In this document: positions 1,316 through 46,058 of the stretch, in pieces | How positions within the stretch are numbered: the stretch's first letter is position 1 | Layout: each line of letters opens with the position of its first letter | Program-made: the position numbers and the translations under genes | The notes under the pieces: generated by a model | Databases searched by the model: none | What the model saw: the letters and a program-made list of their open reading frames with translations, nothing else | Told to the model about the DNA's origin: nothing | Origin: a virus | Virus record (IMG/VR): IMGVR_UViG_3300028197_000003 | Location: 1-64,000 of that record | Reading direction: 5' to 3' (one strand) | Length of the DNA: 64,000 nt

Positions 1316-1486
1316 TTAGGGGTAAAAAATTTCTTGTAGGACGCCATTGGAGGAGAGGACGCGATATTTTTTGCCGGACTGGATAGAACGCCCCTTTGCG
1401 GTACGGCAAGCAGATGTCAAGGAGTGTTGTTCACCGTAGCGATGCCACTTGAAGAATTGGTCCTGGTATTCAATGATAAATTTCAT
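1316..1486 (-). CDS. Tiny conserved-looking basic protein (56 aa)
   Basis: Minus-strand frame with ATG at 1486 and TAA at 1316-1318. It overlaps the 3' end of the SGNH-like gene (1470-2234) by 17 bases, so translation is probably coupled; no separate ribosome-binding site is visible. The product begins MKFIIEYQD, has a central TACRTAK-like basic helix (SACRTAKGRS) and ends with ...GVLQEIFYP. This pattern of an N-terminal strand, aromatic Trp-His, Ala-Arg-Thr-Ala helix and hydrophobic end resembles small conserved proteins I associate with cyanomyovirus genomes. Function unknown. It is the last gene of the minus-strand operon. Confidence 0.6.
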   Translation of the reverse strand: MKFIIEYQDQFFKWHRYGEQHSLTSACRTAKGRSIQSGKKYRVLSSNGVLQEIFYP

Positions 1487-2234
1487 TGTAAAGGAGGTTA
1501 GCGAAGAAGTTATGAGATAGTCGAGTGGGATGAAAGGAGTGTGGATTTATGTGTTTATGTTGTTCTAAGAAGCGGATACGGCGTGAGTCTGTCTTTTGAT
1601 ACTGGGAGACGTGGTAAGTATCATTAGTGGGAGTGTAACCGTGATGGGTAGATAGGATGGAACAGAGGTCCCTGTGAGGGCGATCAGAGAATAGGAGACG
1701 GGGGATATGAGTGGGGTATATGTGATGATTGAAGAGATCTACCCAATAGTTACGAATACCGAGTGCATCAAAGTAAGTATTCCAATGAAGCATTTGATTG
1801 GAAAGTTCTTTGAGGACTACGGAGTGATTGTAATGTAAGCGGAGGTGAGTTTTGGAGTCAAAGTTATTTTTACGTAGTTGGTTATCTGCGGAATAACCGT
1901 GACCCCATACTCTACTTACGTAGGTATTACGGTTATTATACCATATTTCATCACGAGCGGTTGAAGTTATACCCCAGAGAACAATGGAGTCTTTCGAGGG
2001 GGGAGAAGTGTTGAAGAACTCAGTGGCCAAGCGGAATTGTTTTTGGTTACTTGAACCATTTTGTGAGAAATTTATGTTAGTTTTATTGAGTTTCTCTGAG
2101 AGTAGGTGACGGTATGAGTATTTTGTGAAGTCTTCAGAGTGTCTTTGGGCGTTGAATTGTTCTCTAGGTTGTCCTGGGGTGTAGCAGAGACCGTGACCCC
2201 ACATCCAGGAGCAACCGAAGGTGATGAGGTTCAT
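1470..2234 (-). CDS. SGNH/GDSL-hydrolase-like protein (paralogue 1)
   Basis: A 254-residue protein with a GCSW nucleophile elbow at residues 7-10 (ITFGCSWMWG), a second block NGSSN near 60, WGITSTARDE near 87 and a C-terminal HPTRLSH at about 235. These match blocks I, II and V of SGNH hydrolases: Ser nucleophile, Gly/Asn oxyanion residues and a C-terminal His. The usual GxND block III is replaced by WGxTxxxR in this subfamily. Such enzymes remove or transfer acyl groups, often acetyl esters on glycans. No signal peptide is visible, so it is expected to act in the host cytoplasm or on virions. It is closest to the gene at 5218-6003. It is transcribed with four other paralogues. The real substrate is unknown. 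Confidence 0.72.
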   Translation of the reverse strand: MNLITFGCSWMWGHGLCYTPGQPREQFNAQRHSEDFTKYSYRHLLSEKLNKTNINFSQNGSSNQKQFRLATEFFNTSPPSKDSIVLWGITSTARDEIWYNNRNTYVSRVWGHGYSADNQLRKNNFDSKTHLRLHYNHSVVLKELSNQMLHWNTYFDALGIRNYWVDLFNHHIYPTHIPRLLFSDRPHRDLCSILSTHHGYTPTNDTYHVSQYQKTDSRRIRFLEQHKHINPHSFHPTRLSHNFFANLLYNEIYH

Positions 2235-2264
2235 AGGCGGTCGGAACCCTCTCTCAAAGGAAGT

Positions 2265-3110
2265 TTATTTGTCACCTGTAGCATCACGATGTTCTTGGGA
2301 GTAGATGGACTGTCTCATATTATTTTTTGTGAGGTAATAGTATGGAGACTTGAATATATCATGCATTGAGTATTCCATTACCATAGCGATACGTTTATGT
2401 GCTTTAGGAGTAGGGTGAAGTTGATTTTTGAAGGTATGAAGTAGATTAGTTTGTACACAATATTTGACACGTTCTGAGGTTTCTTCATTCATCCAACGGA
2501 TACCATATCCTGGAGTTTCCAGATTGGAGTCAGGTGCATGACATTCATTCCATGTTAGTTCAGTTAGCATGGAATTGATTAGGAGGCGACCACCAGGGTG
2601 GATATGATTATCGATACCATCCCACCAATAGTTAGGAATACCTTCAAGTTTTAGAAGTTTATCAAAGACTGCGATTTGATATTTGAATCGTTCATAACAT
2701 ACCCAGAAGTTATGATGTTTTTTATAGTAATCATCAACATCAATTTTGTGCCAATATTCTTGGTTGAACTTTTGTTCATCAGTCATGCCAGGGAATAAAA
2801 CCATTGAGGCAGCTTCAAAATCATCTTTATTTGAAATATGCTGAATTTCAAAGATAATACCAGCGACTTTGATGCCTCTTTTTTTATACTCAGGTAACTT
2901 ACGAATAATTACTTTATTCAAGTGGTATTGGAGAGTATCGTTAGATGCCCGTTTGAAAGATATATTCTTTAGTCGCCAGTTATATTTGTCTGCTAAGATA
3001 TGTGCCCATGATTTTTTAGGGTCATCTTCTGCAAGAGTCCATGCACCACCAATGACGATTAGGACTGGGCGAAGATCATCAATAGGAGTGCCACCATCAA
3101 AGGTCTCCAA
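2265..3110 (-). CDS. SGNH-like protein lacking the nucleophile serine (paralogue 2)
   Basis: This 281-residue protein aligns by eye with the other SGNH paralogues: hydrophobic strand VLIVIGGAW, block II RASNDTLQYHL, and C-terminal LHPTPKAHKRIA. The nucleophile position is Ala (GGAW in place of GCSW), so it may be catalytically dead or have another role. The only usable start is a TTG at 3110. It has a GAGGG ribosome-binding sequence 8 bases upstream, and an in-frame TGA lies just before it. It overlaps the end of the zinc-ribbon gene by 14 bases. The N-terminus is about 16 residues longer than in its paralogues. The frame is intact, which argues against simple decay. Confidence 0.65.
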   Translation of the reverse strand: METFDGGTPIDDLRPVLIVIGGAWTLAEDDPKKSWAHILADKYNWRLKNISFKRASNDTLQYHLNKVIIRKLPEYKKRGIKVAGIIFEIQHISNKDDFEAASMVLFPGMTDEQKFNQEYWHKIDVDDYYKKHHNFWVCYERFKYQIAVFDKLLKLEGIPNYWWDGIDNHIHPGGRLLINSMLTELTWNECHAPDSNLETPGYGIRWMNEETSERVKYCVQTNLLHTFKNQLHPTPKAHKRIAMVMEYSMHDIFKSPYYYLTKNNMRQSIYSQEHRDATGDK

Positions 3111-3366
3111 AGTTATCCCTCATTTCTTCACGATGGTTCTTGAGGGATGTGAAGGCACCATCAATAAAACCACGACGATATTCCCAGGTATCACCCCCGG
3201 TTTTACCTCTAGAGGCATTGATGCACTTTGCAGCATCAGGATCATCTTCTCTAAGGTTATTGCATACTAAACCAGCAAGATCAAGATCTTTACCAGGTTT
3301 GCCGGTCCCTCCCCAATAGAGGACTCCCTCCATCCAAGTAGCACCACACTTTTCACATTTCTTCAT
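3097..3366 (-). CDS. Zinc-ribbon-type small protein (89 aa)
   Basis: It begins MKKCEKCGATW, a CxxC knuckle, and has two further cysteines (LVCNNL at about 34 and AKCINA at about 47) that could complete a four-Cys zinc site. The C-terminal half is charged. It has its own late-promoter motif (CTAAATA) at 3392-3398 on the minus strand, about 26 bases upstream of the ATG. Its 3' end overlaps the TTG start of the nucleophile-less SGNH gene, so the two are probably coupled. Its role, perhaps nucleic-acid or protein binding, is not determinable. Confidence 0.7.
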   Translation of the reverse strand: MKKCEKCGATWMEGVLYWGGTGKPGKDLDLAGLVCNNLREDDPDAAKCINASRGKTGGDTWEYRRGFIDGAFTSLKNHREEMRDNFGDL

Positions 3367-3391
3367 GGGAACCTCTGTGGATTATAAAAAA

Positions 3392-3398
3392 TATTTAG
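3392..3398 (-). promoter_or_regulatory. Late-promoter-like motif CTAAATA (minus strand)
   Basis: TATTTAG on the plus strand reads CTAAATA on the minus strand, placed 26 bases before the ATG of the zinc-ribbon gene and overlapping the stop codon of the gene at 3395. The spacing matches that seen at virion-gene promoters in the window. Confidence 0.55.
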
Positions 3399-4024
3399 AA
3401 GTTAGTATGTTCTATAATGTAGTCAGCAATGATTTTGTGTTGATCTGCATTTGGATGACCTTGACCAGGGGTCTGGATCATCTTCAGAATATCCTCGTAG
3501 ATATGATGCATTTTCGGGTCATCCATTAGGTTTCGCCAATACCCCATATCTTCTAGAGGATCACAATCATTGAATAGTACAATGTAGGGAACTTCATGTA
3601 CTTTAGCAAATTGTTCAAAAAGAAGTAAGTTTTTGTATAAATTCTCTGCCCCATGTGTCTTATTCCATACCCAACGGTAGTAGGAAGACATTGCTAGGGA
3701 ATGTGGTACTTTCTTCTTATTACCTGAACGGAAGTTGAAATTAGAATTATCTTGTCTAAACCTAAAAGGGCAGAAGAGGTGAGCACCATCTTCTGCATAG
3801 AACTCAATACGAGTGGGTACTGTAAGTTGTAAGACTACTGGTTGAACCCCATTAGTCTTTATATGATGTAGTACCCTATTTACGATATAGTCATTGGATG
3901 CCCCACATTGAGACAAATCAGTTGCTTCACACTTGTAGTGTTTTTCAACATGATGAATGAACCGTTCTGCTAGACGGTCCTTCAGTTCATCACCCCATGT
4001 ATACGAACAACCCGCAAATATCAT
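3395..4024 (-). CDS. SGNH/GDSL-hydrolase-like protein (paralogue 3, short form)
   Basis: At 209 residues this is the shortest paralogue. It starts MIFAGCSYTWGDEL, with the Ser nucleophile at residue 7, continues with CGASNDYIVNRV (block II), VVLQLTVPTR (block III position) and ends with GHPNADQHKIIADYI (block V His). Its ATG overlaps the stop of the upstream DUF3310-like gene as ATGA. The small size leaves little beyond the core flavodoxin-like fold. Predicted activity is acyl-ester hydrolysis or transfer; substrate unknown. Confidence 0.72.
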   Translation of the reverse strand: MIFAGCSYTWGDELKDRLAERFIHHVEKHYKCEATDLSQCGASNDYIVNRVLHHIKTNGVQPVVLQLTVPTRIEFYAEDGAHLFCPFRFRQDNSNFNFRSGNKKKVPHSLAMSSYYRWVWNKTHGAENLYKNLLLFEQFAKVHEVPYIVLFNDCDPLEDMGYWRNLMDDPKMHHIYEDILKMIQTPGQGHPNADQHKIIADYIIEHTNF

Positions 4025-4377
4025 GCCGAAAGATCAATCATTTTCTGTATGTAGGTCTTTGCTTTTTGTAGGTCATCTTGACGAGAGTTGCCAGATTTCC
4101 TACCTGCACGACTAACATACTTTACAACATTACCAGCAAAGAAGTCGAGTTCTTGATCTGCAATGAAATCCCAGACTTCAATTTGTCCAGTATTGTAATA
4201 ATCGGGATGGTAACCGAGTGCATCAGAAACCGAAAACGTAAGGTGATCTTGTCCTGGTCCCCCAATGCCTCCAACTTGGAATGTGAAAGGGACTTGCTGA
4301 GCTGCTTGTACAGCATCGTCAGGAACTTGGATATCTAATGCGTCACCGCCGTCGAATTGAATGGTGTCGTCTGCCAT
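4021..4377 (-). CDS. DUF3310-like protein
   Basis: The C-terminal 70 residues carry the pattern I associate with DUF3310 phage proteins: YYNTGQIEVWDFI, then LDFFAGNVVKYVSRAGRK, then DLQKAKTYIQKMI. The N-terminal 45 residues are acidic and glycine-rich. I chose the ATG at 4377 over the in-frame GTG at 4395; it leaves a 4-base gap to the preceding SGNH gene instead of a 14-base overlap. The 3' end overlaps the next gene as ATGA. DUF3310 proteins are widespread in tailed phages and their function is not settled to my knowledge. Its position inside an SGNH array is unexpected. Confidence 0.75.
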   Translation of the reverse strand: MADDTIQFDGGDALDIQVPDDAVQAAQQVPFTFQVGGIGGPGQDHLTFSVSDALGYHPDYYNTGQIEVWDFIADQELDFFAGNVVKYVSRAGRKSGNSRQDDLQKAKTYIQKMIDLSA

Positions 4378-4381
4378 AGAA

Positions 4382-5221
4382 CTAATGAGCGTCACGCCAA
4401 ATAGTATTGTAGGGTTTAGAATCTTTATTAGATTCCTTATATGAAGTATAGCACTTGGTTAGTATAGGGTCAAGGATCTCTGCAATTTGTTGATGTCCTT
4501 GTATAGTTGGGTGAAATGAATATGGATTGAGAACTCCTTTTTTCTTCAAGAAGTCAACACGATCACAATCTGCTTTCCAATCAGAGAAGTGATACTTATC
4601 ATCCATTGGATCCCATCCATTCTTGTATGCCAACTGACTTAGTAAGTCCTGATTGCAGTCATACGGCAATTCATCAAATGGTTTATATACACCACCAGTA
4701 TAATTATTGACATTCAGTGTGTCAAACCATATTTGAGGAACGTTGAGTAACTCAAAATACTTCTGCCAAAAATGGACTTCGTCTGCTAACGTCCGATTGG
4801 CAACACGTTCATAGAAGTGTTGGCGGAAATACTCCTTTGGTCCACACCAATCAGGTCCATGAATATGTTTACGTTTCTCTTGACCGGGTTGAAAGCATGA
4901 AAATGACTTTCCATGATTGAAAAATACTTCCATCCTGTAGATAGAAGTTACCCCCCAGATGACAATAGTGTCATTTAGATCATTCTGATGTAAATATTTT
5001 CTAAGTCTGCGAAACTGACATCCATTAGATGCTCCTCCAGAAGCAATATTGACGTTTTCTAATCCATGCTTTTTTGATAAGATAGTTCTAAACGCATTTT
5101 CCCAGTTGTCATCATCGTTATAACAGCGGTCTTGATACGTTTGTTTGTCCCAAGGATCTTCAGAATCATACCCGGAACCAACACCAGCAATCCAACTGCA
5201 TCCTAAAGTCAGTAATCTCAT
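4382..5221 (-). CDS. SGNH/GDSL-hydrolase-like protein (paralogue 4)
   Basis: A 279-residue protein beginning MRLLTLGCSWIAGVG with the nucleophile Ser at residue 9. Other blocks are GGASNGCQFRRL, IVIWGVTSIYR and SFHPTIQGHQQIAEIL near residue 240, as in the other paralogues. It follows the 5218 gene with an ATGA overlap, and the gene order suggests tandem duplication. A C-terminal extension (CYTSYKESNKDSKPYNTIW) is not seen in paralogue 5. Likely role: removal or transfer of an ester group on a glycan or related substrate. Specificity unknown. Confidence 0.72.
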   Translation of the reverse strand: MRLLTLGCSWIAGVGSGYDSEDPWDKQTYQDRCYNDDDNWENAFRTILSKKHGLENVNIASGGASNGCQFRRLRKYLHQNDLNDTIVIWGVTSIYRMEVFFNHGKSFSCFQPGQEKRKHIHGPDWCGPKEYFRQHFYERVANRTLADEVHFWQKYFELLNVPQIWFDTLNVNNYTGGVYKPFDELPYDCNQDLLSQLAYKNGWDPMDDKYHFSDWKADCDRVDFLKKKGVLNPYSFHPTIQGHQQIAEILDPILTKCYTSYKESNKDSKPYNTIWRDAH

Positions 5222-6003
5222 CTGAGTCGGGCAATCTCACCATCAATCTTATCTGCTAACCACTTATGGTACTCTCTAGTGGGATGTTGAGAGAAAGGAT
5301 TGACTTCTTTCTGCTGTTCTAGATATTGAATGCGAGTAGAATCTGAAGAAGAGAACTGCGAGACGTGATATCCATCTGCTTTTGGGGAGAATTGTAAGTC
5401 TGCACACTTCAAAGACATCAGATCCCGCCTAGGTTGATCGTCAAAGAGCATCCTATCGATTGGTTTGGGGTATTCATGATGGTTGAAAGTATCAAACCAA
5501 TAATTTTCAATACCTGCTGCTTCAAAAAAGCGGTTCCAGAAGCGGCATTTGTGTGCAAGTAGTTCTACTTTCTCCTTGTGATCATAGTGATGTGCTAAAT
5601 GTGCCTTGCTATCAAACTTAGCACGCGCCATTTGGGTGTCAGCACCCCATCCATTACCAAAAAGAACACTGATATATTTTCCTTTTTCCTTAGAAAACAC
5701 CTCAGTGCGGGTTGTAACAGTCAATCCCCAGAGCACAACTGTGTTTTTGTACTCACTTGGATCTAATTTACCAAAGTATCTCTCAGCAAACCGAAACTGA
5801 CGCTCATTGGAAGACCCCATTTGAGCGAAATTTTCGTTCGTGCACTCCCACTTATCTGCTAGATGCTTACGAAAGGCATATTTGTCTCCGAACTTTGCGT
5901 CATGATTGTCAGAACCTTGTTTATATTCAATCTTAGTCATCCCTGGAGTATAGTTGGTACCCACACCAAACATCCAAGAGCATCCAAAAGTAACAAGATT
6001 CAT
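5218..6003 (-). CDS. SGNH/GDSL-hydrolase-like protein (paralogue 5, first gene of minus operon)
   Basis: A 261-residue protein: MNLVTFGCSWMFGVG, MGSSNERQFRF, VVLWGLTVTTR and SQHPTREYHKWLADKI give the same block order as its relatives. It is clearly the nearest relative of the gene at 1470: both begin MNL(V/I)TFGCSWM and share a TYHVSQ- or YHVSQF-type segment near residue 200. It is the promoter-proximal gene of the minus-strand operon, with an ATAAATA motif at 6046-6052. No signal sequence is visible. Confidence 0.72.
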   Translation of the reverse strand: MNLVTFGCSWMFGVGTNYTPGMTKIEYKQGSDNHDAKFGDKYAFRKHLADKWECTNENFAQMGSSNERQFRFAERYFGKLDPSEYKNTVVLWGLTVTTRTEVFSKEKGKYISVLFGNGWGADTQMARAKFDSKAHLAHHYDHKEKVELLAHKCRFWNRFFEAAGIENYWFDTFNHHEYPKPIDRMLFDDQPRRDLMSLKCADLQFSPKADGYHVSQFSSSDSTRIQYLEQQKEVNPFSQHPTREYHKWLADKIDGEIARLR

Positions 6004-6106: not shown

Positions 6107-7078
6107 CTATTTTCCCCATGCTTCAGGTAAAGTTTTGAATACGTACTTCCAATCTTTATAAAATTTACCCATATACATTCCTGCAACGTTGATATCTTCT
6201 GGAGTAAGGTCTTCAACGTCGCTTATCCATTGATCTTTTAGGTATTCGTGGTGTGGTGCCTTACTTCCCATGTCTGGGACATAGACATTTTGATGAAGCT
6301 CTGTAATTGGGTACTCAAAAAACTCAGAAATAGCACCAAGTTGCTCTGTTTCTTGTTCAGGATCCCAAAAATCTTCCATCACCACTGGATAAACGTTATC
6401 TTTACCAAAAGCATCGCAATATTTTAGGTAACCAGCGATATAATCGCAATGATCTGGCACTCTATTCTGTTTTAGGTTGTGAAAAAACAATTTTCGGTGA
6501 TTTTGTCTCTTTGCAAAGGCTGCTGCGGTAAAATCTCCGCACCAAGAATCTACAACATTGACTTTTCGGGTCAATAAACTACCAACTTCCGAAAAATAGC
6601 GCCTAACAGGGTCACGAAACTCCATCAAGATCTTGACTTTGAAGTGCTCCTGCAATTTTGGAGCAATTTCAAACAAAAATGGTCGAGGAAGACTGAAATT
6701 TGTGTTGGAGAAGTCGCAAACTCCCTCATATTCGTCTTTGATGTTTTCCCAATGCCCTAAAAAGTATTCAATGTACGCATCGAGTGACTTTGGATTTGCC
6801 ATAAGCATTTCCAAAGACGTATTTTTGACAAATCGGTTACTTTTTGATAAATATTCGCCATACGGATGATCGTTTGGTCTTTTTTGATAACTAGCACCGT
6901 TCCACATTAGATCAAAGGCACGTTCATGCTCCTCATCTTTCTTACAAAGTGCTTTGAGGTACCAATTTTCTTTTTTATGCCCCATATGAACATATTGGTT
7001 GTCCATCGTCACTGTGTAGTGCATTGGACTTGTTGCTGACCAGCCAACGCCGGGATTTAGAAGCAGTGTTGGTTTCAT
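6107..7078 (-). CDS. Sulfotransferase-like protein (paralogue A)
   Basis: A 323-residue protein beginning MKPTLLLNPGVGWSATSPMHY. The GVGWSATSP segment is placed like the 5'-phosphosulfate-binding loop of PAPS-dependent sulfotransferases, and MEFRDPVRRYFSE near residue 160 resembles the 3'-phosphate-binding (R...S) motif. The C-terminus PEAWGK is shared with the divergent neighbour at 7266. The family would move sulfate from PAPS to a hydroxyl or amine acceptor. No PAPS synthesis gene is visible here, so PAPS would come from the host. The two genes diverge from a 32-bp gap. Acceptor unknown. Confidence 0.7.
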   Translation of the reverse strand: MKPTLLLNPGVGWSATSPMHYTVTMDNQYVHMGHKKENWYLKALCKKDEEHERAFDLMWNGASYQKRPNDHPYGEYLSKSNRFVKNTSLEMLMANPKSLDAYIEYFLGHWENIKDEYEGVCDFSNTNFSLPRPFLFEIAPKLQEHFKVKILMEFRDPVRRYFSEVGSLLTRKVNVVDSWCGDFTAAAFAKRQNHRKLFFHNLKQNRVPDHCDYIAGYLKYCDAFGKDNVYPVVMEDFWDPEQETEQLGAISEFFEYPITELHQNVYVPDMGSKAPHHEYLKDQWISDVEDLTPEDINVAGMYMGKFYKDWKYVFKTLPEAWGK

Positions 7079-7110: not shown

Positions 7111-7269
7111 ATGCCGTATGATGTCTATCTAGACAAGAAAATCATCTTTGAATCTCTATCAAAAGAAAAAGCAGAAGGAATTCGAGATACCATGCAAAAT
7201 ATGATTATGGCAGGAATCAACACTACTTATAAAGTTGAAGATATCCGAATTGAACCTTGTAAAGGATGA
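7111..7269 (+). CDS. Tiny hypothetical protein (52 aa)
   Basis: ATG at 7111 follows a full AGGAGG ribosome-binding site at 7097-7102, one of the best in the window. The 52-residue product (begins MPYDVYLDKKIIF, ends EPCKG) has a beta-strand/helix/strand look and no known motif. Its TGA overlaps the next ATG as ATGA at 7266-7269. It is probably a leader gene of the plus-strand decoration operon, and its strong translation start could feed ribosomes into the downstream sulfotransferase-like gene. Confidence 0.75.
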   Translation: MPYDVYLDKKIIFESLSKEKAEGIRDTMQNMIMAGINTTYKVEDIRIEPCKG

Positions 7270-8156
7270 AACCTACATTATTTTTGAACGTAGGAACTGG
7301 ATGGTCAGGGACTACTCCATTATACTACACTTTGGGTTGGTATAACAACTATTGTCATGCTGGACACCGTAAAGAAAAAGGATATCTGTGGTTGCTTCAG
7401 TTACAGAAAGATAATAACACGTTTGAGCGAGTAAAGTTCTACAAAAAGTTTTTTGGACCATCCAGGCAGTCAATTACGACTCGGAAACCCAAAATCTTCA
7501 CTCATGAATCTAAGTACGTTGCTGGAAAATGGACTGAGGAAGAAATTGAGTATTTTTGGGGTCCCCCGTTTGAATTGAGAAAGTATGTTCAATATTATTT
7601 GAAGCATTGGGATAATATCAAAGATGATTATAAAGCAGTTGCTGATTTTAGCAACCCCAATGGATATTGCGATGCAGAGTACATAAAATATCTTGCATAT
7701 CATTTACAGAGTTATTTTGACGTAAAAATCCACATGATTTTCCGAGATCCCATTCGTAGACTGTGGTCTTGTCGTCAAGCTCAGAAAAGAGACAAACCTG
7801 TTGAGCATTTTCTAAAGTCTGGCATGGATTTTGACTATATCGATTTCTATAACAAATGGGCAGATGCATTTGGCAATGATAATACCCATGTAACAATCAT
7901 GGAAGACTTTTGGGCAGGAGACACTTCTTTGCTGTCAAGTTTTATTGGTATGGATATCAAGGAGACTCATGTCAATGCATATGTCCCAGATCTCGGTCCC
8001 TGTGCTCCACATATCCAATATTTGAACGATCAGTGGGAATCTGACGTAATGCATATGCCAGATCATGTCAAGGATAAAGCAAAGATTATGATGGAACCTT
8101 GCTATTCTCATTGGAAGCAATATTTTGGCAAATTGCCCGAATCTTGGGGAAAGTGA
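7266..8156 (+). CDS. Sulfotransferase-like protein (paralogue B)
   Basis: A 296-residue protein with the loop NVGTGWSGTTPLYY at residues 8-21 (PAPS 5'-phosphosulfate loop position), FRDPIRRLWS at about 159-168 (3'-phosphate motif) and a C-terminal KLPESWGK. It is most similar to the divergent gene at 6107: shared MKPTL start, GHRKE/GHKKE, NAYVPDLG/NVYVPDMG and DQWxSDV. It starts in an ATGA overlap with the tiny gene at 7111. Predicted to sulfate an unknown acceptor. Confidence 0.72.
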   Translation: MKPTLFLNVGTGWSGTTPLYYTLGWYNNYCHAGHRKEKGYLWLLQLQKDNNTFERVKFYKKFFGPSRQSITTRKPKIFTHESKYVAGKWTEEEIEYFWGPPFELRKYVQYYLKHWDNIKDDYKAVADFSNPNGYCDAEYIKYLAYHLQSYFDVKIHMIFRDPIRRLWSCRQAQKRDKPVEHFLKSGMDFDYIDFYNKWADAFGNDNTHVTIMEDFWAGDTSLLSSFIGMDIKETHVNAYVPDLGPCAPHIQYLNDQWESDVMHMPDHVKDKAKIMMEPCYSHWKQYFGKLPESWGK

Positions 8157-8186: not shown

Positions 8187-8324
8187 ATGCGCCGACTCTG
8201 GTATTGGATTGTAGGTGAATGGAATCTTCGTAAAATCCGCAAAATGGATCCGTTTATCTACGAAGCAGATCAGATGGATGAGATGGATGATCCTTTTGCT
8301 GATGATGGGGACGATAAAGGATGA
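8187..8324 (+). CDS. Tiny acidic-tailed protein (45 aa)
   Basis: ATG at 8187 opens a 45-residue frame whose TGA (8322-8324) overlaps the ATG of the carbamoyltransferase at 8321. The N-terminus is basic and Trp-rich (MRRLWYWIVGEWNLRKIRK); the C-terminus is strongly acidic (ending DDGDDKG). The bipolar layout could be a short amphipathic membrane or partner-binding helix with an acidic tail. I know of similar tiny proteins in cyanophages but no function. The overlap with a clear gene supports it. Confidence 0.65.
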   Translation: MRRLWYWIVGEWNLRKIRKMDPFIYEADQMDEMDDPFADDGDDKG

Positions 8325-9700
8325 TTGGATTTTCTGAGGGGTTTCACGACGCCGGACTGGCGGTTGTTCGTAATAAAAAGATTATCTTTGCTGCACATAG
8401 CGAAAGATACTCTAAGAAAAAGCATGACAAACGATTATGTGATGAACTTGCCTTTTATGGCGAATCACTCAACACAGGTGATGACGTAATCGCTTTTTAT
8501 GAGAAACAGTTCCCAAAACGTGTCAGGCAATTTTTCGCTGGACAAAACCACTGGCGTAAACGAAGACATCTAGCGTTACGACCAAATATCGGTTTTCCTC
8601 ATCATCAATCACATGCTGCAGCAGCATTCCAGACTTCATGCTTTGAAGAAGCAGCATGTGTTGTTGTAGATAGTATTGGTGAATGGGATTGTAGTTCTGT
8701 ATGGACTGCAAAGATGGTTGATGGTAATGCTGTCTATAAAAAACGTTGGTCCCGTAGATATCCAAAGTCTATAGGTCTTTGGTACTCTGCTTTGACTGGA
8801 TGGGCAGGTCTTCGTCCTTTAGACGAGGAATATATCTTTATGGGTATGGCAGCGTTTGGTAAACCCCATTATGTTGAAGAGGTAAGAAAACTCTTGTCTC
8901 AAAACAACCATCGTGGTTGCCATTTAGATATTGAGAGTAAGGAAGACGTTGCTGCTAGTGCACAGGTCGTTCTAGAGGAAGAGTTAGATAAGATTTTTGA
9001 TATTGCTCTTAGATACAGCGATAATGTCTGTTATGGGGGTGGTGTTGCATTGAATTGTGTTGCTAATACCAAACTACGTAAAAGGTGCAACTTATGGATC
9101 ATGCCCAACCCAGGTGACGCTGGTGGGGCACTTGGTGCTGCTCTATTGGCATCAGGTAAGAAAGTAGAGTTCACTCCTTACACTGGGTATAAGATCGACC
9201 GTAAAGTTGATCCTGAAGCAGTTGTAGATGTTCTTTTGAAGGATGGCATCTGTGGTATAGCAAATGGTAAGGCAGAGTATGGTCCTCGTGCTTTAGGTAA
9301 CCGTTCTTTGATTGCGGACCCCCGATCATTTGCAAATAAGGATCGAGTCAACGAAATCAAGAAGAGACAGAAGTTTAGACCATTTGCACCCGCAATTCTG
9401 GAGGAGCATTGTCAAGATTACTTTGATATGCCAGAGCACTCTCGATACATGTCTTATGTCTATCAATGTAAGCGTCCAGACGAGATTCCTGCCTGCGTGC
9501 ACGTCGATAACAGTGCAAGAGTACAAACGGTGCCCGAGACTAGTGAAAGCGTCTTCAGAGCGATTCTAGAGGCATGGTACAAGCGTACAGGTTGCCCTGT
9601 ACTTCTAAATACATCATTGAACATTCGTGGCATGCCAATGGTCAATGAATGGTCTGATGCACTTGATTTCTCTAACAAGTATAACGTTACTGTATTATGA
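8321..9700 (+). CDS. Carbamoyltransferase, NodU/TobZ/CmcH type
   Basis: A 459-residue protein with recognisable carbamoyltransferase signatures: MIGFSEGFHDAGLAVV at the N-terminus, HHQSH (94-98, the metal-binding histidines of the Kae1-like domain), a GGVALNCVAN motif at about 240, EYGPRALGNRSL at about 320, RQKFRPFAPA, and NTSLNIRGMPMV in the C-terminal YrdC-like part. The family makes carbamoyl-adenylate from carbamoyl phosphate and ATP and carbamoylates hydroxyl groups of sugars or antibiotics. It is shorter than the usual 540-570 residues. It is coupled by ATGA overlaps to the tiny gene upstream and the SGNH gene downstream. Sugar or surface-glycan carbamoylation is inferred. Confidence 0.88.
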   Translation: MIGFSEGFHDAGLAVVRNKKIIFAAHSERYSKKKHDKRLCDELAFYGESLNTGDDVIAFYEKQFPKRVRQFFAGQNHWRKRRHLALRPNIGFPHHQSHAAAAFQTSCFEEAACVVVDSIGEWDCSSVWTAKMVDGNAVYKKRWSRRYPKSIGLWYSALTGWAGLRPLDEEYIFMGMAAFGKPHYVEEVRKLLSQNNHRGCHLDIESKEDVAASAQVVLEEELDKIFDIALRYSDNVCYGGGVALNCVANTKLRKRCNLWIMPNPGDAGGALGAALLASGKKVEFTPYTGYKIDRKVDPEAVVDVLLKDGICGIANGKAEYGPRALGNRSLIADPRSFANKDRVNEIKKRQKFRPFAPAILEEHCQDYFDMPEHSRYMSYVYQCKRPDEIPACVHVDNSARVQTVPETSESVFRAILEAWYKRTGCPVLLNTSLNIRGMPMVNEWSDALDFSNKYNVTVL

Positions 9701-10539
9701 AAATACTATTTTCCGGCGATTCCTTCTGCGAAGGCACTGAACTAGACGGTCGAGAACATAGTATGGAACAAAGGGATACATTACGATATTCAAACGTTGT
9801 AAAAGAATATTTGAACGATCTTTTTGGCATTCAAGTCACATTTGACAATATCGGATATTCTGGTTACTCCAATGATGAGATTACTCGCGATACAGTTGAG
9901 TATTGTGAGAAAACCGAAGTAGATGTTGCTGTAGTTCAGTTCTCACACCCTCAGAGGTGGGCATACTACAGTGAGGTGAAAGAACGCTGGTTTAGTATGG
10001 ATCAGTATGAACATTTTTATGGTTGCCACCCAGAACACAAAGTAATTGAAATTTGTGAGTGGTGGGACACTAATGTCAAGTCTAGAACTCAATATATTGA
10101 CAATTTTTTCAAAAACGTATTTTTACTTGAACAATACTTCAAAGCAAAAAACATTCCTTATGTTTTTCTTCAATTAGAGGAATGGACTAATAATGAAATT
10201 GCAAGTTGCGATACTAAGTGGAAAGAGTTGGTAGACACCAAGCGTGTCAAAGGTGTGACACCATCACAAGAAGAATTTGGTAATAGGGAGTATTTTGTCG
10301 GAGAAACAGATGCTATTTGTCCTACATGGTGGATGAAGGACGAAGAACTAATGAGGGAGTACAGAACTCTTGATCAGAGAGATGAAAAAACAGAATTTGC
10401 CGTTGGTAATGATGAAGACACTCATCGGTGGTTAGGTGGATGGCATCCAGGTAAAAATGGTCATATTGCCATTGCAAAGTGGATTATTCAGGAAATGACT
10501 GATAATGAAAAACTCCACCATCTGTTTCCTGGAATATGA
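9697..10539 (+). CDS. SGNH/GDSL-hydrolase-like protein (paralogue 6)
   Basis: A 280-residue protein with a more classical elbow, MKILFSGDSFCEG (Ser at residue 9), GYSGYSNDEI as block II, VVQFSHPQRW at the block III position and GWHPGKNGHIAIAKWI near the end. It is translationally coupled at both ends: ATGA with the carbamoyltransferase and with the radical SAM gene. Its GDSF rather than GCSW suggests a divergent branch of the minus-strand family or an independent acquisition. It may act on the same glycan as the carbamoyltransferase. Confidence 0.75.
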   Translation: MKILFSGDSFCEGTELDGREHSMEQRDTLRYSNVVKEYLNDLFGIQVTFDNIGYSGYSNDEITRDTVEYCEKTEVDVAVVQFSHPQRWAYYSEVKERWFSMDQYEHFYGCHPEHKVIEICEWWDTNVKSRTQYIDNFFKNVFLLEQYFKAKNIPYVFLQLEEWTNNEIASCDTKWKELVDTKRVKGVTPSQEEFGNREYFVGETDAICPTWWMKDEELMREYRTLDQRDEKTEFAVGNDEDTHRWLGGWHPGKNGHIAIAKWIIQEMTDNEKLHHLFPGI

Positions 10540-11789
10540 ATAGAAAGGAGGTAATTGATAATCAAAAAAACAATAGTCTTTGTGCATATCCATTTTTCTC
10601 TGTTAGAAATGGACAATCACATGGATATGCTCCATGTTGCTGGGCACACCGCCAACAACTAGTTGGTCCTGCTACTGACACTGTTTTTGAATATTTTGAT
10701 GGTCCAGAGGCAGTTGAGTTACGCCGTGGAATGTTGAATGGCGAAATAACCAATCAGTGTAAAGGAATTTGTCATTTGTGCCATGAGCGAGAAAAAACGA
10801 GTGGTACGTCTGCTCGTTTGATGATGAAAATCGATGAAAACATGCTTGCTCTTTATAATGATGATGGAACCTATAATCCTGATCACAATCCAGATATTCG
10901 TGAAGTTCTAAATCTAGAACTGAATTTTTATGGTAGTTACTGTAATCTGGAATGTTATGGGTGTCATCCTGCAGATTCAACAACTAGAACTGCTAGATTA
11001 GAAAAAATCTCAGACCTACGAGTTTCTGAGGGAAGAGACGACTGGTTTGCCAAAAATGTTGATGATGTCTACTGGTTACCTACAGATCTCAGAAAAGTTG
11101 ACCCAGATCAATTTCGTAGACTTGTAGAAGACATTATTGATAATGCTGACCGCATTGGTGCCATGGGATTCTGTGGTGGAGAACCAATGGCGATGAAGGC
11201 ACATTTTCAAGTTCTAGATGCTTTGATTCTTGCAGGAAAAGCATCACACATGAAATTGAACTATGTCTCAAATATGACTATGTGGGACATGAAAGTAATG
11301 GAAAAATACCTGAAAGAGTTTAGATACATCCATGTTCAATGGAGTTGTGATGGATTACGTGAAAGAAACCATTATTTGAGATATCCAACAGATTGGGATA
11401 AAACATGGGCAAATGTTCAAGCACTGCGAAAATATTGCAAAGAATCAGGAAAAGGTTCTATGCAGACAACATATACACCTTCTCTTCTAAGTGTGTACAA
11501 AATCAAAGAAGTATTTGAGTTTTTTGAAGAGCAGAATCTAAAATCACGTCCATTTGAAATCTATAACCGATTAGAGAACCCACATTTTCTAAGAGTCAAT
11601 AATCTGCCAGAACCACTCAAAGAGCAGATATTAGATGAAGTAAAAAGTGTTAGTGAGTCAGTTGCTTTAGATATGATGAGACCATGCGAACCTGGGTCTT
11701 GGGAGATTGCAAAAGAGTATTTTGATGATCTGGATAAAACCCGAGGAACCAATTGGAGACTGACTTTTCCCGAACTTGCGGGGTACTAA
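10536..11789 (+). CDS. Radical SAM protein with twitch-type extra Cys clusters
   Basis: A 417-residue protein. C136-NLE-C140-YG-C143 is the CX3CX2C cluster that binds the 4Fe-4S/SAM centre, and GFCGGEPMA (about 211-219) is the SAM-contacting GGEP motif. Additional cysteines are at 16, 34, 35, 75, 79 and 82 (YAPCCW; CKGICHLC), placed N-terminally as in twitch-like radical SAM proteins. These enzymes start chemistry with a 5'-deoxyadenosyl radical; the substrate (peptide, sugar or nucleotide) cannot be told. It overlaps the SGNH gene by ATGA and ends the coupled block. A late-promoter motif overlaps its stop codon. Confidence 0.85.
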   Translation: MNRKEVIDNQKNNSLCAYPFFSVRNGQSHGYAPCCWAHRQQLVGPATDTVFEYFDGPEAVELRRGMLNGEITNQCKGICHLCHEREKTSGTSARLMMKIDENMLALYNDDGTYNPDHNPDIREVLNLELNFYGSYCNLECYGCHPADSTTRTARLEKISDLRVSEGRDDWFAKNVDDVYWLPTDLRKVDPDQFRRLVEDIIDNADRIGAMGFCGGEPMAMKAHFQVLDALILAGKASHMKLNYVSNMTMWDMKVMEKYLKEFRYIHVQWSCDGLRERNHYLRYPTDWDKTWANVQALRKYCKESGKGSMQTTYTPSLLSVYKIKEVFEFFEEQNLKSRPFEIYNRLENPHFLRVNNLPEPLKEQILDEVKSVSESVALDMMRPCEPGSWEIAKEYFDDLDKTRGTNWRLTFPELAGY

Positions 11790-11845: not shown

Positions 11846-12610
11846 ATGGCTAAAGGTTTCAAGGTGGTAACGACTCCGCCCGAAGGCGAACAAACTACAA
11901 AGTCGGACGAGTTCAGTGTTGAAGCCGCAAGAGAGATGGTAAAGGGTAAGACCTTTGTCTTCTGTCTCCCTGGTCGCGGCGTATCATATATTTTCCTGAA
12001 AAACTTTGTGCAACTCTGTTTTGAGATTGTGCAGCAGGGGGGTGCTATCCAGATCTCTCAAGACTACTCTTCAATGGTCAATTTTGCCCGTTGTAAGTGT
12101 CTAGGAGCAAATGTCCTCCGTGGTCCTGATCAAGAACCTTGGGATGGCAAACTCCAGTATGACTATCAACTGTGGATCGACAGCGACATCGTTTTTGGTC
12201 TTGAACAGTTCTATCGCATTCTCTGGATGGATAAAGAACTTGCTGGTGGTTGGTATGTGACTGAGGATGGTAACACCACTTCTGTTGCACACTGGTTAGA
12301 AGAGGACGACTTCAAGAATAATGGTGGTGTAATGAACCACGAGATGCTTGATGGTATTCAAAAGCGTCGCAAACCTTTTACTGTTGACTACACCGGTTTC
12401 GGTTGGTTACTAATCAAGAAGGGTGTGTTTGAACACAAGATGATGACATACCCTTGGTTTGCTCCTCAGATGCAAGTTTTTGAATCTGGAGAAGTCCAAG
12501 ACATGTGTGGTGAAGACGTATCTTTCTGCCTCGATGCTAAAAAAGCAGGGTTTGAAATTTGGTGTGATCCTAAGTGTCGTGTCGGTCATGAAAAAACTAG
12601 AATCATTTGA
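11846..12610 (+). CDS. GT-A fold glycosyltransferase-like protein
   Basis: A 254-residue protein with D112-S-D114 (LWIDSDIVFG), the DXD-type metal and nucleotide-sugar site. An acceptor-side segment DYTGFGWLLIKKGVFE follows at about 181-196, then GEDVSFC (222-228) and a closing DPKCRVGHEK. This order is typical of GT2-like GT-A glycosyltransferases. There is no membrane segment. The gene has its own late promoter and leader hairpin. Coming straight after carbamoyltransferase, SGNH and radical SAM genes, it completes a set consistent with building or editing a glycan. Donor and acceptor are unknown. Confidence 0.72.
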   Translation: MAKGFKVVTTPPEGEQTTKSDEFSVEAAREMVKGKTFVFCLPGRGVSYIFLKNFVQLCFEIVQQGGAIQISQDYSSMVNFARCKCLGANVLRGPDQEPWDGKLQYDYQLWIDSDIVFGLEQFYRILWMDKELAGGWYVTEDGNTTSVAHWLEEDDFKNNGGVMNHEMLDGIQKRRKPFTVDYTGFGWLLIKKGVFEHKMMTYPWFAPQMQVFESGEVQDMCGEDVSFCLDAKKAGFEIWCDPKCRVGHEKTRII

Positions 12611-42162: not shown

Positions 42163-42775
42163 AGGTCTGACGACCTTCTCTAATAGTCTCGTCTAACCAA
42201 TGGTCTTTGACGGGACTTACATATTTTCCGTTGGCATCGCCGGTTATAAACTGGTCGATGCCATTGGTCGTTACAGGGAACTTTAGAATCTCCCCACAGT
42301 ATTTGATATAGTCTTCCTTCCACAAGAAAAAAGATTCGTGAGATAGGAAATGTGTTTCAATATATGGATCCTCTAAGAGGGATTTATAGTAACCTTTGGC
42401 AATCGGTAGGGTTACTTCTCCACCAACTCTTTCTTGTTGAAGTGCATTTATATTTTGATCTCTTGTAATAATTGCCACTACAGGTGTGTAACCAAGATGC
42501 ATTGCTTGATGACAAACTGCTGAAATCTTAGGTACCTGTCTGACACCATCATAGAAGAAAGGAACACTTACATTTGCTAGAAAAAAATCTCCCTCAGGAA
42601 ACTCTAACAACTCAGGATATACCCAATACTTGGCAAATGGTTCCTCATCAGATGGAACCCAGTAATTATCTTTGAGAGAATCCCACCCTACAACTTCTGG
42701 GTGCAAACTAAATATTCTTGCAAATAGGTGATTGCCTGATCCTTGTGGTCCGGTTGTGATAAGGAGTCTTTTCAT
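42140..42775 (-). CDS. P-loop protein, sulfotransferase-like (paralogue D1)
   Basis: A 211-residue protein beginning MKRLLITTGPQGSGNHLFARIFSLHPEVVGW, a P-loop (GPQGSGNH) that is more kinase- or sulfotransferase-like than ATPase-like. Near-identical architecture is found at 47190-47870 (GPQGSGNHLW, FSLHDDVYGWKSLLNNYW), so the two are paralogues. VAIITRDQNINALQQERV near residue 108 resembles the second motif of its twin (KIVVIGRDQNILRNQQQR). Its ATG overlaps the ATG of the divergent gene at 42774 within TCATGA. Its stop lies within the end of the diiron gene. It could be a sulfotransferase or a nucleotide-dependent transferase. Confidence 0.62.
   Translation of the reverse strand: MKRLLITTGPQGSGNHLFARIFSLHPEVVGWDSLKDNYWVPSDEEPFAKYWVYPELLEFPEGDFFLANVSVPFFYDGVRQVPKISAVCHQAMHLGYTPVVAIITRDQNINALQQERVGGEVTLPIAKGYYKSLLEDPYIETHFLSHESFFLWKEDYIKYCGEILKFPVTTNGIDQFITGDANGKYVSPVKDHWLDETIREGRQTFKQRQEV
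42161..42178. other. Small stem-loop at the convergent gene junction
   Basis: GAAGGTC-TGAC-GACCTTC is a perfect 7-bp stem that begins within the stop codon of the diiron gene. No T-run flanks it on either strand, so it may stabilise mRNA 3' ends rather than terminate. Confidence 0.4.
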
Positions 42776-43913
42776 GAGTAAACCGAAGTTTATATTTTTC
42801 TTAGGAGCATCATTTTCAGCAACAACTCCGCTGTATAAAATGCTTCGTAATCACATTACGAGTGGATTTGCTAAAGAACATCATTTGGCAGAAGTAGCAG
42901 AGATAGCGCAACAAATAAGATCTGGAATTTATACACCGACCGATAGAGATAATTTTCCCTTTTTATCAAGTTCAAAAAAATCTTCTACCTCATCATGGGT
43001 CGGTGGGGAAGAGTATAATGAAAAGTTATTGAGATGTAAAAAGAAGATTGATTGCGCCCAAAATTTTGGTACTAGTTCTGGTGAGATTATAACAGATTAT
43101 CCGGATTTTAGTAATTGGTCAATACAAAAATATGTTGATTACTACAAAAAATTGTGGGACAATAGAGGGGATGGTAGAGATGTATTAGTTGATTGGTCTA
43201 ATAGTAATGGTCGTTTAGATTATAATTTTATAAAAAATTTACTGGAAGCATTGAAGCAAGAGTTTGATGTCAGTGCTCTGATTATATGTAGAGACCCTGT
43301 GAGAAGGGCATGGTCTTGGTTGAACTATGCATGGAATGATTATTCAAAAGTTTATATGAAAGATCGTTACACTAATATTGACTCTGCCGCCAAAGCAGAA
43401 TTTGCAAAAATAAAACCATATCATCCACTCATTGAAAGTGTAGAAAAATCGTGTCCTGTGCACGTTTTGGTTATGGAAAAAGTATGGGAGGGTAATTCTT
43501 TTCTATCTAAAGAAGAGTCTCAAATAATTACTCAGTTGATTGGGAAACCTGACTTTGCCCCAAACCTATACTGTCCCGATAGAGGAAACAAAGCAATCCG
43601 TTATAAACATCAAAAAGACCAGTGGTGTTCTGATCATTTCAATATGTCAGATAAACAATACTATGAGTACAAAAATATTATGATTGATCATTATGATGGA
43701 TGGAAAGGAGATCTTCCTGAGGGGTGGGGATCTCCAATGGATTATGAAACAAACTGTTCCTTACCCATAGATGGCATAGAAGAACAGTACATCAAACCTG
43801 GAACTTATCGTAAGAGTGATGGAAAATTATATGTAGACTTTGATGGTTATGATGAATTATATAACGTTGAATATGTTGACCCATATTTTAGTGATAAATT
43901 TTCCAACCCATAA
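42774..43913 (+). CDS. Sulfotransferase-like protein (paralogue C1)
   Basis: ATG 42774 (MSKPKFIFFLGASFSATTPLYK) has AAGGAG at 42761-42766; the earlier in-frame start has none. Residues 10-20 (GASFSATTPLY) match the sulfotransferase 5' loop; CRDPVRRAWSW near 180 is the 3'-phosphate motif. The C-terminal extension WGSPMDYETNCSLPI plus about 60 residues is shared with the genes at 44992 and 46059 and is absent from paralogues A and B. It is therefore a separate sub-branch. Predicted PAPS-dependent; acceptor unknown. Confidence 0.72.
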   Translation: MSKPKFIFFLGASFSATTPLYKMLRNHITSGFAKEHHLAEVAEIAQQIRSGIYTPTDRDNFPFLSSSKKSSTSSWVGGEEYNEKLLRCKKKIDCAQNFGTSSGEIITDYPDFSNWSIQKYVDYYKKLWDNRGDGRDVLVDWSNSNGRLDYNFIKNLLEALKQEFDVSALIICRDPVRRAWSWLNYAWNDYSKVYMKDRYTNIDSAAKAEFAKIKPYHPLIESVEKSCPVHVLVMEKVWEGNSFLSKEESQIITQLIGKPDFAPNLYCPDRGNKAIRYKHQKDQWCSDHFNMSDKQYYEYKNIMIDHYDGWKGDLPEGWGSPMDYETNCSLPIDGIEEQYIKPGTYRKSDGKLYVDFDGYDELYNVEYVDPYFSDKFSNP

Positions 43914-43938
43914 AAAAAGGCAGGCGTTATGCCTGCCT
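43912..43938 (-). terminator. Intrinsic terminator of the TRAP-binding-protein gene
   Basis: Read on the minus strand: GGCAGGC-ATAAC-GCCTGCC followed by seven T. It sits between the convergent genes at 42774 and 43958, and only the minus-strand orientation has the T-run. Confidence 0.88.
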
Positions 43939-43957
43939 ATAAAATCAAAACAGAAGT

Positions 43958-44914: not shown

Positions 44915-44941
44915 GCCTTATTGAGTTATGGTTCTATACTA

Positions 44942-44948: not shown

Positions 44949-44991
44949 TGTAATGTAACTGTTCCTAAATTATTATGATGCTTGTGAAAGG

Positions 44992-46038: not shown

Positions 46039-46058
46039 TAAAGTGATTGTATAAAAAA

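Follow-up and report, generated by a model that had tools for sequence, protein, structure and literature searches.

The first 64,000 nt of the 192-kb cyanophage record IMGVR_UViG_3300028197_000003 (the window, meaning the whole stretch of DNA analysed here) carry an array of five homologous SGNH-like genes, A to E, and a sixth paralogue, F, beside genes of sugar-modifying type (Table 1). This arrangement suggests that viruses have a little-studied set of tools for sugar decoration. In the reading that we favor, and to which we give about an even chance, the products of A, B, C and E stay in the cytosol, have the SGNH fold and act as sugar O-acyl transferases or esterases, as part of a phage cassette for glycan decoration in which degenerate copies have been kept under purifying selection.

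Table 1. Genes of the SGNH array and its surroundings, in window positions.
Feature	Positions	Strand	Length (aa)	Motifs or supporting match
E	1470-2234	-	254	GCSW / GSSN / WGITSTAR / HPTRLSH
D, degenerate paralogue	2265-3110	-	281	TTG start as listed; GGAW; HPTPKAH kept
phrog_484 gene, unrelated, function not assigned	3097-3366	-	89	phrog_484 6.7e-30
C, small clade	3395-4024	-	209	GCSY / GASN / QLTVPTR / HPNADQH
DUF3310-type gene, unrelated	4021-4395	-	124	GTG start as listed; PF11753 2.7e-13; phrog_236 4.1e-22
B	4382-5221	-	279	GCSW / GASN / WGVTSIYR / HPTIQGH; 4-base overlap with A
A, predicted SGNH-fold protein	5218-6003	-	261	GCSW / GSSN / WGLTVTTR / HPTREYH
Sulfotransferase-like gene upstream of A	6107-7078	-		Profile A5 (4 rows) against PDB 3rnl, E 1.7e-4
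Second sulfotransferase-like gene	7266-8156	+		42% identical to the 6107-7078 gene
NodU/NolO-type carbamoyltransferase	8321-9700	+		PF16861 1.3e-52; PF02543 1.2e-36
F, sixth SGNH-like paralogue, small clade	9697-10539	+	280	GDSF / GYSN / QFSHPQR / HPGKNGH
Radical SAM protein, overlaps F	10536-11789	+		PF04055 1.2e-8

Organization and homology of the array

The first-pass annotation had described positions 1470-6003 as a tandem minus-strand array of five related genes. The five homologous genes are present but are not strictly tandem, as the phrog_484 gene and the DUF3310-type gene, whose type is that of phage "nucleotide kinase" families, are interposed. Only A, B and E carry the complete motif set ascribed to all five; C shows LQLTVPTR and HPN, and D has GGAW without the Ser and no T...R, although HPT...H is kept. 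BLAST linkage divides the genes into two clades, A/B/D/E (the A clade) and C/F (the small clade). E is 46% identical to A, and L028 has a copy 92% identical to E. F shares a 4-base overlap with each of its neighbors. Three further SGNH copies lie elsewhere in the record, two at approximately 101.99-103.38 kb and one (gene I) at 147.8-148.8 kb. These two other islands and the glycan-type neighborhood fall outside the ground that the first-pass annotation had covered.

Profiles were made from viral relatives, with the near relatives of the window taken out, and scored against the 181 window open reading frames of at least 60 aa. The A-clade profile recovered A (E 3e-90), E (1e-87), B (1e-80), D (2e-17), C (1e-7) and F (0.004), with the next open reading frame at 2. 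The small-clade profile recovered C (3e-38), F (2e-34), B (3e-18), E (2e-13), A (3e-12) and D (1e-5), with the next at 0.9. Because these leave-out profiles recover all six genes, chance resemblance is ruled out.

The family is overlooked by annotation libraries: none of the six window proteins reaches the cut-off of any Pfam family or matches PHROGs at E 0.01, and an ordinary GDSL lipase annotation was therefore rejected. B has a weak match to Pfam Lipase_GDSL (E 0.0016, 19.1 bits; cut-off 23.6). When alignment A3 (A, B, D, E and 47 relatives, without C and F) was compared with NCBIfam, A was unmatched and one of the 51 rows matched, to xylose isomerase (E 0.0048); among solved structures, a sequence search with profile A3 returned only bacterioferritin (E 0.83). 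A motif-pattern scan of 84,980 prokaryote genomes, which detects only close motifs, gave 75 pattern matches, none of them a relative, and distant cellular relatives may lie beyond its reach. In a tblastn search of 50,697 phage records, A, D, F and L060 were unmatched, and C and H matched one record each, the same single-cell virus record. We found no account of such arrays in the open-licence literature on SGNH/GDSL and carbamoyltransferase genes in cyanophages.

Predicted fold and active-site blocks

Structure prediction, which had been suggested as a check on the SGNH core, supports it for A and C. The AlphaFold (AF2) model of A (pLDDT 91.8, pTM 0.90) matches SGNH esterases at Z about 14, and that of C (pLDDT 81.8, pTM 0.82) matches TesA-type chains at Z about 14-15 (VIA against the PDB); TesA-type, carbohydrate-esterase and GDSL chains head both fold lists at Z 12-15. 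By homology, B, D, E and F probably belong to the same SGNH-fold superfamily. When the C-clade profile is aligned with E. coli TesA (hhalign), GCS falls on GDS and HP on HP (E 2.7e-4, probability 42), and the Gly of GASN aligns with the block II Gly. The A-clade profile aligns with TesA near block II alone, over 42 columns and with a probability of 6.9.

The block I Ser is found in the GCS of A, B, C and E and the GDS of F and is absent in D, which apparently lacks its catalytic residue. The block II Gly is present in 100 of 119 A-clade and 34 of 39 small-clade unique proteins; D has R before ASN. The place of the block III GxND is occupied by T-x-x-x-R, and this replacement, taken earlier as the mark of a distinct subfamily, proves to be family-wide, with the Arg in 110/119 A-clade and 39/39 small-clade unique relatives. 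The Asn of xSN is similarly conserved (119/119 and 36/39). In block V the His is kept, and the Asp of DxxH, three residues before it, is absent in A–E, in all 119 A-clade rows (five of which have gaps there) and in all but 7 of the 39 small-clade rows. The array, corrected as above, is real. The hydrolase label of the first-pass annotation goes beyond the evidence, since A–E have neither the block III Asn nor the block V Asp and D is without the Ser as well.

These absences are compatible with a family that is non-catalytic throughout, the SGNH fold being a sugar- or ligand-binding scaffold even in the copies that bear Ser and His, as are the seven clusters at 60% identity that have lost Ser or His and whose measured lineages remain under constraint. 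We nevertheless regard this as unlikely, while giving it real weight, since Ser and His are retained together: all 97 A-clade proteins in which the GCSW scan pattern is exact keep the His, which is part of no scan pattern. Among the other 22 A-clade proteins, Ser is present in 18 and His in 8. Overall, His is kept in 105/119 A-clade and 35/39 small-clade proteins and Ser in 115/119 and 35/39, the A-clade Ser figure being raised by the Ser-containing scan pattern; small-clade copies were found mostly as neighbors. In addition, OafA/OafB, which are O-antigen O-acetyltransferases, have SGNH domains that also work without an evident GxND (PMC7448272).

Copy-number variation and degenerate copies

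A search for array-size variation among environmental contigs had been suggested, and size does vary, with SGNH runs of 1 to 6 copies in 79 viral loci; A-type copies group together in the tree across related phages, and B-type copies do likewise. Duplication and loss would drive this change in copy number.

Copies related to D also lack the Ser, with GGAW in L003 (partial), GGCW in L015 and GGRW in L017/L018, and three of the seven degenerate clusters belong to the D lineage. Degenerate copies are under purifying selection: dN/dS is 0.16-0.42 for degenerate and 0.04-0.33 for intact copies, and constraint is kept in the lineages measured, namely D, two His-less lineages and GCA...Y. Between D of L015 and D of L017, synonymous sites are saturated and dN/dS was not obtained. 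The degenerate rows form long branches in the tree, and their placement is unsure.

Degenerate 60% clusters number 7 of 42 in arrays and 0 of 22 among singles (Fisher p 0.085). For unique proteins the counts are 18/94 and 1/32 eligible singles (p 0.04, with rows that are not independent); a further 32 rows, none degenerate, were left out of this comparison because of contig ends. The comparison is biased because most singles were found through a Ser-containing pattern, so that singles without Ser are mostly unfindable: 23 of the 26 A-clade singles carry GCSW, the pattern that found them. The link between degenerate copies and arrays is thereby weakened and proves little.

It is possible that copies without Ser or His, such as D, serve as binding or partner subunits paired with live ones. 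The first-pass annotation had suggested selection for several specificities or for hetero-oligomers, both of which are conjectural. A stronger form of this idea, that the arrays encode hetero-oligomeric SGNH assemblies mixing catalytic and dead subunits, with glycan acylation specificity tuned by the gain, loss and killing of members, seems to us rather improbable, and slightly more so in view of the search bias described above. If it were true, these assemblies would constitute a viral combinatorial sugar-decoration system found almost only in uncultured phages.

Gene neighborhood and proposed function

A carbamoyltransferase, GT25, GT1, epimerase or DegT cluster gene occurs in 48 of the 79 loci, a raw count with no random-position baseline. 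This rises to 54/79 once sulfotransferase-like and amidinotransferase-like genes are added, near-identical phages not being collapsed, and 16/79 loci have none of the twelve neighbor clusters counted (one of which, c7, has no assigned kind). Directly upstream of 133 A-clade genes are found another A-clade copy (46), a sulfotransferase-like gene (26), a candidate TOD1-like glycosyltransferase (23) or a GT1 gene (6). Some of these names are weak: TOD1-like and GT7C-like lie under the Pfam cut-offs, and the sulfotransferase assignment is made at E 1.7e-4, the 6107-7078 product having no Pfam match at 0.001. The virus contig MH319727 brings together two SGNH genes and genes for a carbamoyltransferase, a radical SAM protein and sulfotransferase-like and amidinotransferase-like proteins, and a second island in G001 has a sulfotransferase-like gene amid SGNH copies (L162).

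We propose that a phage-borne subfamily of small SGNH-fold proteins, represented here by A, B, C and E, works in the cytosol and would most likely put acyl groups (acetyl or similar) on sugars or take them off. Both the acyl chemistry and the sugar substrate are inferred. The block I Ser and the C-terminal His would carry out catalysis, and the oxyanion site may have been rebuilt from the invariant xSN Asn and the T-x-x-x-R Arg in place of GxND. No signal peptide is apparent, because the genes begin at the first predicted strand (judged from the sequences and the model of A). The putative cassette of the window would comprise the carbamoyltransferase, sulfotransferase-like and radical SAM proteins, and those of relatives glycosyltransferases, an epimerase, an aminotransferase and an amidinotransferase. 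The cyanophage could use such enzymes during infection to alter its own glycans or the surface polysaccharide of the host.

The arrays at the gp32 site lie amid replication and baseplate genes, which speaks against the cassette reading. The array ends some 7 kb away from gp25 and gp6, and gene I is less than 3 kb from gp53. These distances could suggest virion-associated glycan esterases, baseplate or fibre proteins that deacetylate host polysaccharide at adsorption. Such a role would have precedent in phage tail-fibre SGNH deacetylases and in a tail-fibre reading frame whose GDSL domains differ between cryoconite phage populations (PMC7468147), and phrog_5240 ("tail fiber protein") is matched by 3/18 small-clade and 1/51 A-clade relatives. 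We consider it distinctly unlikely, since the window copies, at 209-281 aa, have no room for fibre domains and are not set inside a larger structural protein, and since the genes adjoin enzymes of cytosolic type, with psbA directly after an SGNH gene in 9/79 loci.

The T4-like genome has three sites at which the number of SGNH copies varies. The genes are small, and translational coupling is frequent, an overlap of exactly 4 bases being present in 29 of 62 same-strand pairs. Arrays of this kind, small and quick to vary at fixed positions, could also be expected of counter-defence proteins that remove an acyl or nucleotide signal of host immunity. We assign this little probability, as glycan-type enzymes recur in the neighborhoods instead; PADLOC-DB matches none of the six SGNH proteins, a weak argument given that PADLOC covers defence and not counter-defence. 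The radical SAM gene has a viperin-type PADLOC match of the sort that radical SAM proteins can give, weak at E 2.8e-4 and 18.4 bits. Least probable is DNA hypermodification, in which carbamoyltransferase, radical SAM, 2OG oxygenase and SGNH-like proteins would modify nucleobases: although 5-hydroxymethylcytosine is the substrate of one known phage-type carbamoyltransferase (PMC8670742), that system co-occurs with a thymidylate-synthase-type enzyme (no PF00303 member was found in the 192-kb record), the carbamoyltransferases of unmodified contigs are reported in the same paper to adjoin glycosyltransferases, and the relatives seen here adjoin a sugar-type epimerase and aminotransferase.

The analysis places the SGNH family in glycan-type cassettes of marine cyanophages. 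Its small soluble proteins make the use of sugar-modifying genes by lytic cyanophages testable, and the degenerate copies that have been retained could serve to test how pseudoenzymes function.

Comparison with known systems

The predicted folds of A and C resemble TesA, carbohydrate esterase family 2 and other SGNH/GDSL esterases (Z 12-15), with which the array family has in common the block I G-x-S, the block II Gly and a C-terminal His followed by Pro. It differs from these esterases in having T-x-x-x-R for GxND, in the missing His-3 Asp of A–E and in the missing Ser of D.

DUF6071 (PF19547), a family without an assigned function for which an open-licence literature search found no paper, is matched at E up to 0.01 by 5/51 A-clade and 4/18 small-clade rows and by none of the six window proteins. 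No protein in the record exceeds its Pfam threshold of 27 bits; gene I has a weak stretch at 14.6 bits.

The array proteins can also be likened to OafA/OafB and PatB, in which a small SGNH domain acts on glycans; PatB structures appear in the fold lists. These act outside the cytoplasm with a membrane AT3 or MBOAT partner (PMC7448272). An AT3-SGNH O-acetyltransferase system was rejected for the array, as no AT3 acyl-donor partner (PF01757) was found in the 192-kb record; the record may be incomplete, and such a partner may be encoded by the host.

Phage tail-fibre SGNH/GDSL deacetylases likewise apply an SGNH fold to host polysaccharide (PMC7468147). They do so as a domain of a larger structural protein, whereas the array members are separate small proteins encoded in an operon of biosynthetic type.

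Homology and Gene Organization

Profiles built from viral relatives, leaving out near relatives of the window genes (92 rows retained out of 119 in one, 30 out of 39 in the other), single out exactly the SGNH-like genes A to F among 181 window ORFs. With the two profiles, the weakest of the six scores E 0.004 and 1e-5, against 2 and 0.9 for the next-ranked ORF; by this sequence comparison the likeness of the six is not a matter of chance. The A-clade (A, B, D, E and relatives) is linked to the small clade (C, F and relatives) by hhalign (probability 99.3, E 4e-20). The first-pass annotation described A to E as a tandem array in one minus-strand operon; all five are homologues on the minus strand, but two unrelated genes break the array. 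Given the overlaps among the array genes, it is plausible that A to E and both inserted genes form one transcription unit.

SGNH-like genes of the record and associated genes (positions in bases unless marked kb)
Feature	Position	Strand	Remarks
E	1470-2234	-	homologous SGNH-like gene
D	2265-3110	-	homologous SGNH-like gene, degenerate (lacks Ser)
phrog_484 gene	3097-3366	-	unrelated, inside array; overlaps D by 14
C	3395-4024	-	homologous SGNH-like gene
DUF3310 gene	4021-4395	-	unrelated, inside array; overlaps B by 14, C by 4
B	4382-5221	-	homologous SGNH-like gene; 4-base overlap with A
A	5218-6003	-	homologous SGNH-like gene
Sulfotransferase-like gene	6107-7078	-	same strand as A, upstream of A
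F	9697-10539	+	sixth copy; 4-base overlaps with flanking NodU-type carbamoyltransferase and radical SAM genes
Radical SAM gene	10536-11789		
254-aa gene	11846-12610		precedes gp25
Sulfotransferase-like trio	42732-47189		
Two overlapping SGNH copies (L012)	G000:C1 101.99-103.38 kb		between ribonucleotide reductase small-chain region and endonuclease-like gene
One SGNH copy near gp32	147.8-148.8 kb		third island, L013 (G000:C1 143-151 kb)

The window makes up the first third of the record, whose 192,351 bases encode two photosystem reaction-centre proteins, a transaldolase-family protein, PhoH, gp32, gp53, the ribonucleotide reductase small chain, gp25 and gp6, genes that mark the record as of T4-like cyanophage type. 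At least nine family members are found in it, six in the window and three elsewhere. The endonuclease-like neighbor in the second island is labeled from its sequence and has no Pfam match. The third island (L013; L163, L164) lies near gp53 as well as gp32, and radical SAM genes are close to the gp32-site island in this record and in virus record G007. The sulfotransferase-like family is, by its profile matches, multi-copy as well: of six matches in the record, three stand side by side at 42.8-47.0 kb and a fourth, at about 74.5 kb, carries one in-frame TAG.

Predicted Fold and Active Site

AlphaFold2 modeling covered A, from 51 aligned relatives (pLDDT 91.8, pTM 0.90), and C, from 18 (pLDDT 81.8, pTM 0.82). 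Structure prediction, a check proposed in the first-pass annotation, upheld the SGNH assignment of these two, as the top PDB matches of both models are SGNH/GDSL esterases. Z-scores are 14.1 (4rw0), 14.0 (2waa) and 13.7 (TesA 1ivn) for A, with rmsd 3.0-3.1 over 158-171 residues, and 15.4 (4rsh) and 14.7 (TesA 1ivn) for C; Foldseek E-values against the PDB are modest (best 6e-4). In a viral structure library 39 models match at E 0.001 or better, the named ones nearly all from uncultured Caudovirales, and some carry the name SGNH hydrolase. A weak match to the A model (Foldseek E 1.3e-3) is BFVD A0A6J5LTW5, a viral protein of 602 aa named radical SAM. It could be a fusion of SGNH and radical SAM parts, reminiscent of the way F overlaps the radical SAM gene here.

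In an alignment of the small-clade profile with E. coli TesA, GCS pairs with GDS and the Gly of GASN with that of block II, HP matches HP, and the T-x-x-x-R segment lies opposite GGND (E 2.7e-4, probability only 42), whereas the A-clade profile aligns over just 42 columns around block II (probability 6.9). Among 119 A-clade and 39 small-clade unique full-length relatives, counted with no identity filter, the Ser is kept in 115 (partly built in, because 97 carry the GCSW pattern used to find relatives) and 35, respectively, the Asn of SN in 119 and 36, the Arg of T-x-x-x-R in 110 and 39, the His in 105 and 35, and a second His in 94 and 34. Asp at the expected His-3 position occurs in 0 of 119 and 7 of 39. 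The His, which lies outside the scan pattern, is kept in 97 of 97 GCSW-bearing A-clade proteins; the 22 lacking exact GCSW retain Ser in 18, Arg in 13 and His in 8. Thus, Ser and His tend to stay or go with the rest of the site.

Degenerate Copies

At the Ser site, D carries GGAW in the window, as does the partial copy of viral locus L003; the motif is GGCW in L015 and GGRW in L017 and L018. The Arg of T-x-x-x-R is gone from D. Two His-less lineages (GSSW...L and GDSW...L) are found in L029-type arrays, and both Ser and His are gone from copies of L043, L044 and L046 and from one L080 copy. The dN/dS of D is 0.42 (window versus L003) and 0.28 (versus L015), that of the His-less lineages 0.16-0.22 and 0.32, that of GCA...Y 0.20 and that of intact copies 0.04-0.33, the L015 comparisons and intact L043/L044 pairs being rough at high synonymous divergence and those pairs possibly non-orthologous. 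The measured degenerate copies stay under purifying selection. D is the fastest-evolving of the six genes in the comparison with L015; in that with L003, B outpaces D. A non-catalytic SGNH scaffold acting purely by binding is an unlikely reading of the family as a whole.

Degenerate copies number 18 among 94 unique array proteins and 1 among the 32 singles that were eligible (p 0.04), or 7 of 42 and 0 of 22 as 60% clusters (p 0.085). Since the GCSW scan pattern is present in 23 of 26 A-clade singles, this contrast is biased, and the higher share in arrays is only suggestive.

Distribution and Array Variation

Viral scans with related queries returned 153 and 165 relatives (79 and 80 loci kept). 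A pattern scan of 84,980 prokaryote genomes, which sees close motifs only, gave 75 pattern matches and 0 relatives; distant cellular relatives are possible. Against 50,697 phage records, tblastn of A, D, F and L060 found nothing, and C and H (another family protein) found one record each, both MH319727, a viral contig that was amplified from one marine cell.

The variation in array size that the first-pass annotation proposed to look for is evident. The largest run per locus (gaps <1600 bases; 79 loci from one scan, near-identical phages counted separately) is 1 in 46, 2 in 15, 3 in 4, 4 in 8, 5 in 5 and 6 in 1, all lower bounds because many contigs are short. In relatives, copies at the site of the window array number 6 in L015, 5 in L017, 4 in L029, 3 in L032 and 2 in L020. 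The ribonucleotide reductase site holds 2 copies in this record; in G001 (L162) it has 4, a sulfotransferase-like gene lying among them. The gp32 site holds 1 here, 5 in G008 and 3 in G007. Same-strand neighboring pairs overlap by exactly 4 bases in 29 of 62 cases. In a tree of 80 A-clade proteins, with E represented by its 92% identical L028 copy, A-type copies of related phages cluster together, as do B-type copies, and the A/B duplications are therefore older than those phages. Later duplications include two B-type copies common to L015 and L016 and the L036 pair; D and the His-less L028/L029 copies form long branches of unsure placement.

Gene Neighborhood and Putative Function

Neighbor genes in the 79 loci were clustered and each cluster named from a single representative. 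By raw tally, sulfotransferase-like genes and 2OG-Fe(II) oxygenases occur in 26 loci each, carbamoyltransferases in 23, TOD1-like glycosyltransferase candidates in 23 and GT7C-like genes in 14 (both under the Pfam cut-off), GT25 in 17, amidinotransferase-like, epimerase and radical SAM genes in 8 each, GT1 in 7 and DegT aminotransferases in 5. A carbamoyltransferase, GT25, epimerase, GT1 or DegT gene is present in 48 loci, or 54 with sulfotransferase-like and amidinotransferase-like genes included; 16 loci have none of the twelve counted clusters. The complete order GT7C-like, GT25, 2OG oxygenase, two TOD1-like, SGNH recurs in 13, and psbA, identified from one representative, comes directly after an SGNH gene in 9. 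Apart from the sulfotransferase-like genes, the families counted here are confined, in the window, to its first 12.6 kb.

The tandem large proteins of L061 (2565-5995) and relatives, of about 510 and 635 aa, have weak TOD1/MUCI70 glycosyltransferase similarity and precede the SGNH gene in 23 of 79 loci; for one of them the only phage record matched is a virus contig from a single cell. The 254-aa gene has relatives in 15 of 79 loci and no match in Pfam or by sequence in the PDB.

The sugar-modifying neighbors, the Ser-His pair and the small, soluble form, in which no signal peptide is apparent, favor proteins that would transfer or remove acyl groups on sugars inside the infected cell; the target could be surface polysaccharide of the host or a sugar carried by the virion. 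Sullivan et al. (PMC3037559) note that cyanophages carry carbamoyltransferases and also LPS-type gene clusters whose role is unknown. A virion-associated glycan esterase aiding adsorption is improbable. A role in counter-defense is more doubtful still; the six SGNH proteins have no match in PADLOC-DB, which covers defense models, not counter-defense. The radical SAM protein beside F matches prokaryotic viperin models weakly (PADLOC-DB, E 2.8e-4, 18.4 bits), possibly through superfamily similarity alone. A DNA hypermodification cassette is very improbable, since the 192-kb record has no thymidylate-synthase family and PMC8670742 reports that the domains of carbamoyltransferase and thymidylate synthase are found together in modified contigs only.

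By sequence and predicted structure, the family is a real, widespread phage-borne SGNH-fold variant in variable arrays and a glycan-type setting, its function putative, and was missed by the family libraries tried. The sugar acyl chemistry favored here has a known parallel in OafA and OafB, whose SGNH O-acetyltransferase domains are described, in passages of PMC7448272, as having an atypical oxyanion hole and no evident GxND, a published counterpart to the GxND missing from this family.
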